A stretch of DNA of 32,705 bases from an uncultured Veillonellaceae bacterium (lineage in GTDB: Bacteria > Bacillota > Negativicutes > Selenomonadales > Selenomonadaceae). The notes under the pieces are model-generated. The model saw only the letters and a list, made by a program, of their open reading frames with translations. It was not told the origin of the DNA and searched no databases. The DNA lies in contig CACYDT010000058.1 in NCBI GenBank assembly GCA_902773295.1, positions 1 to 32,705 on the forward strand, given 5' to 3'. Of this stretch, positions 27,402 to 31,488 are shown piece after piece. Position numbers and translations under genes: made by a program. How positions within the stretch are numbered: position 1 is the first letter of the stretch; the number at the start of each line of letters is the position of its first letter.

Positions 27402-28031
27402 TCATCCATGCGTGATATGATAGGACAAGCTGCTCAATCCAACAGACAGATCCTCGTTCACAATATATATGCCATCCGGCACGCTCATCTTCACGGGAGC
27501 AAAGTTCCAGATTCCAAGGATCCCGGATTCTGCCAAGCAATCTGCTACCTCCTGAGCAAAAGCTGCAGGAACGGCAATGATGCCGATATGAATATCCCGT
27601 TCCCTAACAATGCGTCCAAGATCCTTTGCATCTTCTACTTTTACATGGTTTATCGTGGTTCCTATGACATGAGGATCCCGATCGAAGAGCGCCACCAGCC
27701 GAAAGCCCAATGCCACGAAGTTCTGATAATTCGCCAATGCAGATCCCAAATGACCAATGCCGATCACAGCCATATTCCAATGATGATCCAGCCCTAGGAT
27801 TTCCCCAATGTTCCTCTTGAGCTCATTCACATAATAGCCAACGCCTTTCTTCCCAAACTGCCCGAAGGCTGCCAGATCCTTCCGGAGCTGTTCCGGAGTG
27901 ATTCCCAAGCGCCCGCCCAGTTCATCAGAAGAAACAATATCAATCCCCTCGTCATGAATCGCCCGCAATGTGCGAAAATACAACGGCAATCTGTCAATGG
28001 TAGCATTGGATATACTGACCTGTCCCTTCAT
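27402..28031 (-). CDS. rex: Redox-sensing transcriptional repressor Rex
   Basis: 209 aa from the ATG at 28031. A winged-helix DNA-binding domain (about 1-75; ATIDRLPLYFRTL start, GITPEQLRKDLAAFG recognition region) and a Rossmann NAD(H)-binding domain with VIGIGHLGSAL (about 90-100). Rex senses the NADH/NAD+ ratio and represses fermentation and respiration genes when NADH is low. GGAGGTG six bases ahead fixes the start, which lies 18 bases before the end of the polymerase gene reading frame. No clear Rex operator was seen in the window. The pyr promoter follows directly. Confidence 0.97.
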   Translation of the reverse strand: MKGQVSISNATIDRLPLYFRTLRAIHDEGIDIVSSDELGGRLGITPEQLRKDLAAFGQFGKKGVGYYVNELKRNIGEILGLDHHWNMAVIGIGHLGSALANYQNFVALGFRLVALFDRDPHVIGTTINHVKVEDAKDLGRIVRERDIHIGIIAVPAAFAQEVADCLAESGILGIWNFAPVKMSVPDGIYIVNEDLSVGLSSLSYHITHG

Positions 28032-28048: not shown

Positions 28049-30178
28049 TCATGAATCCTCTCTGTCCTCTATCGCCGCAGTCACGGCAGCCAATGCCGCC
28101 AGCATCCAAAGGAGCATGGATGTAGGAATATTGAACAGGAGATCGTCTGTTATTCCATTGACGGCAACGGAAATGAATGCAAGGCCGATCCCTAGGGACA
28201 AACCTTCACAAACGCGCCGATCTTCCCATGTCTTGACTTCCTGCCAATAATCGTCAAGCCCCTTGGAAGGTTCCGCCTCTGCTTCATCCTGCAGTTCTTC
28301 TATGTCGTCCTCCTCTGTCTCTTTTTCCGTTCCTTCTTCCTCTTTTTTCTCCGTTCCTTCTTCCGCTGCTTTCTCCCCTTCTTTCTTTTCCTTCTCTTGC
28401 TTTTCTTCGTTTTCTTGCTCTTCTTCGTTCTCTTCCTCGACCGTATCTTCCTTGACTGCACCTTCCTTTGGCGTATCTTCTTCCGTTTCCTCCTTTTCCT
28501 CTTCCTTCACTGCTTTTCTCTTCGCCCTGGAACGAACTTCCCCCAGAGAAATCACCTTTGCAGTTTTCTTTTCGGCTTCATTTGATTTCTTGGCTTCTTC
28601 CTTCGCAATATCTTCGTCTTCTGTCCCATCCTCGGCATCGTCCTCTTGTTTCAGCAGGGCTGGCCTTTCATGATTACCTGTTTCATTATGTTCCGTTGTA
28701 TCGCTTTCCTCTTTCGTTTTATCTTCTTTGTCTTCTTCGTCTTCTTCTTTGTCTTCTTTTCCTTCTTCGGTTTCCGATTTCTTCCGCGCATCTGAATCTT
28801 CGATTCCTTCATGAAGGGGTGATGAAGCTTCGCTTTCTCTGGAATCACTGCCATCTTCCTGTGACGGCTCCCCGTTCTCCGTCTCTTTCTTCGATTCCGG
28901 AGCTTCTTCTGCAGAATCTCTGCCCGGCTTGTTCTCTGCTTCCACCGCAGCTTCCTTTTCTGCTTCTTTGGGCTTCTCGTTCCCCTGTGTGACAGCTGGT
29001 TCCGAACCGGCCTCTTCCTGCACCTTGGGAGTAACCGTTCCTGCATGAAGCAAGGACAGGAATCGATTGACGCCCCCCTCCTCCGGAACCATATCTTCCG
29101 TCTTCGCCTGTGACAAAAACTCCGAACGAAGACACATGGACATCGTACCGAAGAAATACCAGAAAAAAGCAATGGCACCGGCGATTCCGATTTCCGCCAT
29201 ATAATTCAAATAGATATTATGTGCATGGACAATTTTGATTGGCGCCCCCTGCATATAGAAATCGTATTCCGGGTAAACCATCCAGTAAGCGCCCCACCCG
29301 ATTCCCAGGAACGGATGATCCTGTATCATCGCAACCGTAGCTTCCCAAAAGGCCAGCCTCATCTCCGCGGACGTATCCATTTTCGTAAAAACGGAAGAAA
29401 TCCGTTCATACAGCGCCGGATCAGCCCAAAAAGCAATCCCAATGATGACAAGGCAGGCCAGAATGATGCGCCAATCCTTGAACAGTCCATAAAGCAGGAA
29501 TACAAAAGCAACCGCCAGACAGGCGCCCCGCGCATAGGTCATCGCGAGACACGCTGCCACGACAATCATACCAAAAACGAGAACCGCCTGCTGTAACTTG
29601 CTGCCGCTCTTCATGAAAAATCCCAAAAGAATACATAATACTGCATCCAGATATCCTGCCAAAATATTGGGATTCTCCCACGTAGAAAACACCCGCTTTG
29701 TCAGATCCGGAAAAGCCTCGCCATCCACCCACTTCATATCGCTGATATCAATTCCAAAAACATACTGGTAAAAACCGTAAAGCAGTACAAAAACTGCCGA
29801 TGCTCCCAAGGACAGGACAATTTTTTTCACCTGTTCCGCATTCGTCACATTCTGCCCAATCAACAGATAAGTAAAGACATATACCCCTACCAGATGATAG
29901 TAATTGTAAAAGCTGAATCCCTTGTCAGGCGACACCAGGACAGATGCCGCGCTGAGAACGACGAACAGGGCAATCGGCACATCATAGGGAAGATGGCGGA
30001 ACTCTTTCTTTTTCTCCATGCGGAATTTCCAGACAGTCAGAAGGATGCCTGCCATCAATGCAACCGTGGCAAGGCTCGGCGACAGGGCAACAAAAAACGC
30101 CTCTGCCATCATCGCCCACTGCACCCATTTTTCCAACTGCTTTTGGCGCCTTTTCTGCCGCAGCATATCAATGCTCAT
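28049..30178 (-). CDS. O-antigen ligase/polymerase-type membrane protein with large acidic insert
   Basis: 709 aa. A multi-spanning protein of the Wzy_C (O-antigen ligase, WaaL-like) family: about ten hydrophobic segments between residues 20 and 345, a Wzy_C core with TYARGACLAV (214-223), an extracytoplasmic loop with GWGAYW and the conserved HAHNIYLNYMAEIG (318-331, probable key His), and two last segments (about 659-702). Such proteins transfer or polymerise glycans on undecaprenyl carriers. Between the two last blocks lies a ~255-residue low-complexity insert (385-640), very rich in Glu, Lys, Asp and Ser, almost certainly disordered and probably cytoplasmic, with one distinct island (VISLGEVRSRAKRK, 542-555). 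Family members normally have 400-450 residues without it. The ATG overlaps the folC stop as ATGA. Confidence 0.88.
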   Translation of the reverse strand: MSIDMLRQKRRQKQLEKWVQWAMMAEAFFVALSPSLATVALMAGILLTVWKFRMEKKKEFRHLPYDVPIALFVVLSAASVLVSPDKGFSFYNYYHLVGVYVFTYLLIGQNVTNAEQVKKIVLSLGASAVFVLLYGFYQYVFGIDISDMKWVDGEAFPDLTKRVFSTWENPNILAGYLDAVLCILLGFFMKSGSKLQQAVLVFGMIVVAACLAMTYARGACLAVAFVFLLYGLFKDWRIILACLVIIGIAFWADPALYERISSVFTKMDTSAEMRLAFWEATVAMIQDHPFLGIGWGAYWMVYPEYDFYMQGAPIKIVHAHNIYLNYMAEIGIAGAIAFFWYFFGTMSMCLRSEFLSQAKTEDMVPEEGGVNRFLSLLHAGTVTPKVQEEAGSEPAVTQGNEKPKEAEKEAAVEAENKPGRDSAEEAPESKKETENGEPSQEDGSDSRESEASSPLHEGIEDSDARKKSETEEGKEDKEEDEEDKEDKTKEESDTTEHNETGNHERPALLKQEDDAEDGTEDEDIAKEEAKKSNEAEKKTAKVISLGEVRSRAKRKAVKEEEKEETEEDTPKEGAVKEDTVEEENEEEQENEEKQEKEKKEGEKAAEEGTEKKEEEGTEKETEEDDIEELQDEAEAEPSKGLDDYWQEVKTWEDRRVCEGLSLGIGLAFISVAVNGITDDLLFNIPTSMLLWMLAALAAVTAAIEDREDS
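28259..29026 (-). repeat. Low-complexity purine-rich tract encoding an acidic disordered insert
   Basis: The coding (minus) strand is strongly purine-rich, made of irregular GAA/GAG/AAG/GAT codons, so the plus strand is a long pyrimidine tract. It encodes residues 385-640 of the polymerase-like protein. Such tracts vary in length by slippage and recombination. The reading frame is intact through the whole tract. Confidence 0.75.
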
Positions 30179-31488
30179 AAATCCCCCCCCTTTCGGAGCA
30201 GTATATGCGCTCGAAGGCTTCCGATGAGATACAGGGAACCGGCAGCAACCAGAAGATAATTCCCTCCGGCCAATTCCATAGCCCGCTTCAATGCGTCCTC
30301 CATCCCTGCATATGCCTCCACATCATGCGACTGCCTTCTCGCCATGGCTGCCACATCCTCCACAGATGCAGCACGTTCCGAGAAAGGTTCCGTGACAATG
30401 ACCACATCCTCCTCACGGATCAGCGTTTCCAGCATCTTCCCGATTTCCTTGTCCCGCAAAATGCCCAGAAGGAACACCCGGGGCTTTGCCGGAAAATACC
30501 GGTCCAGACTGCGGCGCAGGGATTCCATCCCCGCCGGGTTGTGGGCACCGTCCAGAAGAATCTCCTGGCTTCCTGCCTTCACGAGCTCGAACCGCCCCGG
30601 CCAGGAGACCACCCGGAGGGCCTTCCGGATGGTCTCCGGCGTGACGCGCCGATCCTGGTGATGCAGCACTACCGCCGCCATGAGGGCGATGGCGCTGTTC
30701 TGCACCTGGTGCTCCCCCAGAAGGGAAAGCTCGTACTCCTTCCCTACCCTCCCAATCAGGTGGGAGGTGAATTCCAGCTTTTGCATACGGGAATCGAACG
30801 CGAGAACCTTCGACTGAAAGTCCTCGCCTTCCACGAAAATATCCGCATGATGCAGTTCCGCCTCCCTGCGGATGATGCCCAAGGCGTCGCCCCCGGCTCC
30901 CGTGACCACCGGCACGCCTTCCTTGATGATTCCTGCTTTGTGATGGGCGATTCCTTCCAAGGTTCCCCCGCACTTATCCGCATGTTCAAAGGCCACATTC
31001 GTAATGACGGAAACTTCCGGACGGATGACATTCGTCGAATCCAAAAGCCCCCCCAAGCCAACTTCAATCACTGCGTATTCCACATGGCGCATGGCAAAAT
31101 AGAGAAAAGCGACTGCCGTAAGGACTTCAAACTGTGTCGGGCACTCCGCGCCTTCTTCTTCCATTTGGTCCACATAAACCTTTACTTTGCCCAGGCAATC
31201 GGCAAACTCCTGCTCGCTGATCGGCTGGCCATCTACCTGTATGCGCTCCGTATAGCTCACAAGATGCGGTGATATATACAGTCCCGTGCGGATGGAGGAA
31301 TTCCGAAGAATTCCCGCCACCATCGCACAGACAGACCCCTTTCCGTTCGTTCCCGTCACATGCACGGTCCGATAACGATTCTGTGGCTCCTCCAGCAGGG
31401 ACAACAGCCTGCGGATTCGTTCCAGCCCAAGACGGATGCCAAAGACAGACAGGTTTTCCAGATAGGCAAGAGCCTCCTTGTAATCCAT
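30175..31488 (-). CDS. folC: Folylpolyglutamate synthase / dihydrofolate synthase
   Basis: 437 aa. A Mur-ligase-like enzyme that adds glutamate to folates (and often to dihydropteroate). ATP-binding P-loop TGTNGKGS (45-52), central GLGGLLDSTNVI segment, HHKAGIIKEG near residue 190, LDGAHNPAGM near 325, and a C-terminal ligase domain to LYLIGSLRA. ATG with AGGAG seven bases upstream, 13 bases after the valS stop; valS-folC is a common Firmicutes pair. The last codons contain a run of eight G that also forms the ribosome-binding site of the next gene. Confidence 0.97.
   Translation of the reverse strand: MDYKEALAYLENLSVFGIRLGLERIRRLLSLLEEPQNRYRTVHVTGTNGKGSVCAMVAGILRNSSIRTGLYISPHLVSYTERIQVDGQPISEQEFADCLGKVKVYVDQMEEEGAECPTQFEVLTAVAFLYFAMRHVEYAVIEVGLGGLLDSTNVIRPEVSVITNVAFEHADKCGGTLEGIAHHKAGIIKEGVPVVTGAGGDALGIIRREAELHHADIFVEGEDFQSKVLAFDSRMQKLEFTSHLIGRVGKEYELSLLGEHQVQNSAIALMAAVVLHHQDRRVTPETIRKALRVVSWPGRFELVKAGSQEILLDGAHNPAGMESLRRSLDRYFPAKPRVFLLGILRDKEIGKMLETLIREEDVVIVTEPFSERAASVEDVAAMARRQSHDVEAYAGMEDALKRAMELAGGNYLLVAAGSLYLIGSLRAHILLRKGGDL

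Follow-up and report, generated by a model that had tools for sequence, protein, structure and literature searches.

The stretch of DNA analysed here (the window) comprises 32,705 nucleotides of contig CACYDT010000058.1 from an uncultured Veillonellaceae bacterium. Positions 28049..30178 of its minus strand encode a 709-aa Wzy_C / WaaL-fold membrane protein with 12 predicted membrane-spanning helices, as judged from the ORF, Pfam and AlphaFold. The ATG start of this ORF shares 4 bases with the stop codon of its upstream neighbour, folC (30175..31488, minus strand), and rex lies downstream (27402..28031, minus strand; the ATG start at 28031 is our call from the sequence). The gene order valS-folC-wzyC-rex defines a single orthologue locus across Negativicutes, and the enzyme gene is class-wide: among orthologue loci with enough flank, folC is retained in 116/143 and rex in 112/144. 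Among public sequences, the nearest relatives are metagenome assemblies of Selenomonadaceae/Veillonellaceae, including several from rumen.

A first-pass annotation of the sequence had taken the product for a Wzy_C membrane protein, and the Pfam search agrees: PF04932 matches residues 203-339 with E 2e-21 and 76.8 bits, against a gathering score of 31.7. An AlphaFold model built with 38 aligned sequences modelled twelve long membrane helices well. Alignment and model together delimit a mostly confident catalytic core, TM1-TM10 (residues 3-351; 29126..30172, minus strand), and a terminal pair, TM11-TM12 (residues 653-708; 28055..28222, minus strand), with a conserved G..TDD.LFN.P. The model matched WaaL (7tpg) with Z 27.2 over 372 residues, followed in rank by the SEDS proteins FtsW and RodA (Z 12-15); Foldseek gave 7tpg an E of 3.8e-05 and the profile search an E of 8.5e-09. 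In the profile alignment to 7tpg, R217 (29528-29530, minus strand) pairs with R191 and R274 (29357-29359, minus strand) with R265. H320, which belongs to a HAHN motif in invariant alignment columns (residues 318-321; 29216..29227, minus strand), pairs with H313. R217, R274 and H320 are all invariant in the 38 aligned sequences, and their partners are what we take to be the catalytic residues of WaaL. The fold and residue match thus identify the modelled protein as a WaaL-fold glycan transferase, presumably active, whose active site R217/R274/H320 would be periplasmic. Helix count, a basic N-terminus inside, HAHN outside and the distribution of basic residues predict that the C-terminus and the long insert described below are both cytoplasmic; the insert had already been placed on this side.

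The first-pass annotation also spoke of a glycan polymerase. The transferase fold was borne out; the restriction to a polymerase was not, since ligase, polymerase and oligosaccharyltransferase all fit the fold and catalytic residues equally, and neither sequence nor fold tells a Wzy O-antigen polymerase from a ligase. With the O-antigen ligase WaaL (7tpg/7tpj) the protein shares the 12-helix fold, the three aligned residues and the HAHN motif. However, 7tpg has 413 aa and no space for such an insert, and the window gene sits in the folC-rex locus, not in an LPS core / O-antigen locus, which is the usual, though not strictly defining, setting of WaaL. The same genome carries a second Wzy_C protein (L174:7804-9066, 420 aa, Wzy_C E 1.3e-25) beside two heptosyltransferases, between one of their genes and a sugar transferase gene, with a Wzt_C ABC exporter nearby. 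It is too small for a long insert, and its counterparts in the congeners G001 and G002, read directly, have a short loop at the corresponding site. In contrast to the window gene, it combines the Wzy_C domain with an LPS-type locus, which would make it the likelier of the two to be the LPS O-antigen ligase. Membership of the IctB family is not indicated, as TIGR00947 (NCBIfam) gave 116.3 bits over residues 9-378 against a curated cut-off of 366.4, and the profile matched the oligosaccharyltransferase 9rmk only over a short stretch near HxHN (E 0.0036). A 2016 phylogenomic survey of diderm Firmicutes, Negativicutes included, could not assign O-antigen ligation (PMC5007114), and V. parvula LPS forms a ladder on gels (PMC5491611). 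Our literature search found no paper combining Negativicutes with O-antigen ligase.

Between TM10 and TM11 lies an acidic disordered insert, predicted to be cytoplasmic (residues ~355-640; 28259..29116, minus strand). It had been annotated as residues 385-640: the right end held, whereas alignment and AlphaFold move the left end to about 355. The disordered acidic character was real, with 52% charged residues and a pLDDT <50 over most of the stretch, the sole predicted secondary structure being a 7-residue helix at 371-377. The aligned loop, which counts the right juxtamembrane segment in, has 305 aa, of which 110 are D/E and 48 K/R; charged residues make up a fraction of 0.52 and hydrophobic ones 0.11, with a mean net charge of -0.20 per residue. 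Charge patterning in the window protein did not differ from shuffles (z 1.0), and tandem repeats are present in the insert DNA. The loop ends before TM11 in the right juxtamembrane segment DDYWQEVKTWEDRRVCEG (residues 642-659; 28202..28255, minus strand), seen in the alignment and the AlphaFold model, where W..e..kWedrR...G is conserved in most genera tested.

Such stretches are not a habit of the genome, since in a background sample of 279 kb the next longest among 232 ORFs is 100 aa. The orthologue again ranked first in a congener sample of similar size, where the other matches >90 aa look like antisense frames. An assembly artefact was rejected because both congeners have a loop of similar length.

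Orthologue comparison settled two questions that the first-pass annotation had raised: the position is fixed and the length varies. In all 118 distinct orthologues extracted, the insertion point is identical, after the helix that follows HAHN and ahead of the final two helices, and lengths run from 8 to 497. The TM10-TM11 loop has 8-9 residues in Pelosinus-type outgroups, Anaerovibrio and Megamonas, 29-67 in most Selenomonas and Mitsuokella, and 105-497 in several genera, among them the window's with 286, 295 and 305. Most living members of crown Selenomonadaceae have a loop of 29-67 residues (14 in one). Acidity is no requirement at this site, since many loops of genus g13 carry almost no net charge. 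The two loops of L087 and L004 (497 and 318 aa) show clear peptide tandem repeats, with TKDEPEEAAE-type units and a repeated KTEKQEADTxKTAKAEEEK block, which suggests that they grew by duplication.

Other lineages carry, instead of a long loop, a mostly acidic tail of 77-234 aa at the cytoplasmic C-terminus. Long loop and long tail never occurred together: 32 orthologues had the loop only, 25 the tail only and 59 neither (Fisher P 1e-4, a value that ignores kinship). On a core-only tree, quickly built and with several deep branches open, the loop state (>=25 aa) changes at least twice and tails (>=60) were gained about 8 times or more. Tail length differs among close relatives, 135 vs 77 aa in one close group and 128 vs 119 in another.

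Selection on these parts was read from substitution rates. In close pairs, dN/dS was 0.02-0.08 for the core (0.12 in one g13 pair), mostly 0.02-0.25 for short loops (0.57 in one pair that differs little) and about 0.1-0.65 for tails. Among the window's congeners, where dS is saturated, an insert dN of 0.61-0.66 against a core dS of 1.7-2.4 gives a ratio of 0.26-0.40, so the insert would evolve more slowly than neutral. Composition points the same way. The inserts of the three congeners keep hydrophobic fractions of 0.10-0.12 and D/E fractions of 0.35-0.45 at 34-37% identity, whereas simulated neutral substitution, drifting from each congener down to about the observed identity, expects 0.15-0.17 and 0.25-0.31.

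The main and serious rival to a functional reading is a near-neutral low-complexity expansion, neutral or weakly deleterious. The TM10-TM11 loop and the C-terminus would be the two insertion-tolerant cytoplasmic places, in which GAA/GAG/AAG-rich DNA grows by slippage. The tandem repeats in the insert DNA, the unequal tails of close relatives and tail dN/dS values of up to 0.65 are what it expects, and because such repeats are present, repeat slippage could also replenish or mimic a stable composition without selection. The reading fits less well with a composition steadier than the neutral model, with an insert persisting over three congeners at saturated dS, and with a protein that is alone among the 232 sampled ORFs in having such a stretch >100 aa. 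We regard it as possible, though doubtful.

The insert had further been credited with one non-acidic island, put forward as a binding motif. The island, VISLGEVRSRAKRK (residues 542-555; 28514..28555, minus strand), is there; a second patch to its left, VNRFLSLLHAGTV (residues 370-382; 29033..29071, minus strand), had gone unmentioned. In one congener, KVVSISSARSKA occupies the corresponding relative position and aligns with VISLGEVRSRAKRK (P=0.003); the second congener lacks the island (P=0.98), and in most other long-loop relatives the match does not exceed chance. VNRFLSLLHAGTV behaves alike, with an echo, FLSLIQGG, in one congener (P=0.001) and none in the other. The first-pass annotation would have read a shifting position or a non-conserved island as neutral expansion, and the outcome was mixed: the position is conserved, whereas the island mostly is not.

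Sequence-specific docking, in which the islands recruit a cytoplasmic partner, can draw on the two patches kept in one congener and on recurrent patterns elsewhere. [KRN][VI][VI]x[LIF] occurs in 13/51 long loops or tails vs 2.5 expected, an enrichment we treat as a lead, the pattern having been picked post hoc and the rows being related. In g13 and kin, [VIL]H[HN][ED][ED][ML][KN] occurs in 16/23 TM10-TM11 loops (L020, L065, L068, L070, L076, L126, L128, L137-L140, L144-L148), often preceding D.QKFA or SEHTRKKF; it is the best docking-motif candidate seen, outside the window's genus. Two extra VHHEELK matches fell within what by eye looks like a sucrose-hydrolase-like enzyme, and were set aside as chance-like. 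Against docking stand the absence of the island from the third congener and its chance-level showing in most other relatives. The DNA pattern of VISLGEVRSRAKRK occurs once in its own genome, in this gene, an observation that says nothing on partners. A conserved docking motif is not supported, the binding-motif proposal is weakened, and we consider docking unlikely.

The reading we prefer, with a probability of about 0.5, is that of a fast-evolving cytoplasmic bristle on a periplasmic WaaL-fold glycan transferase, constrained in composition and hardly in sequence. It is suggested by the single insertion point, the few changes of loop state, the mutual exclusion of loop and tail, and a composition steadier than neutral drift. 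In the ancestor of crown Selenomonadaceae, the TM10-TM11 loop would have lengthened from 8-9 to tens of residues; growth to several hundred would have followed in a few genera, the window's among them. Being cytoplasmic, the loop would stand outside catalysis. It would most likely act as a bristle, a soluble polymer with negative charge, for which length and composition count and the exact sequence hardly does, and which may keep the enzyme clear on its cytoplasmic face, or set spacing or partners by charge. The folded edge that counts would be the W-rich juxtamembrane helix at the right end of the loop.

A broader version, to which we give a low probability, sees an acidic disordered module repeatedly fitted to this class-wide periplasmic transferase, in the loop or at the C-terminus and never both, and steering the site or partners of assembly by bulk electrostatics. 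We hold it very improbable that the insert senses ions, pH or crowding and uses the juxtamembrane helix to regulate the transferase. In favour, it is a suitable polyampholyte connected to a conserved helix ahead of TM11; against, the loop measures only 8-9 residues in many orthologues that keep the full catalytic set.

In the literature searched, we found nothing relevant on disorder in Wzy or WaaL and no description of a bacterial polytopic glycan transferase interrupted midway by a long acidic disordered loop. Graded loop lengths at one site, together with alternative tails in the same compartment, offer a handy natural test of action through composition only.

A minor observation concerns the end of the gene in tailed orthologues, where a shared C-terminal peptide, HIKGDH or VQGDH, was rejected as a protein motif. 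The end of wzyC overlaps the rex start out of frame in L007, L006, L045, L098, L117, L132 and others, so that the peptide is a second-frame reading of rex: read one frame on, its bases encode ISKATIDRLP, the N-terminus of rex, and wzyC stops at the TGA within ATTGAC.
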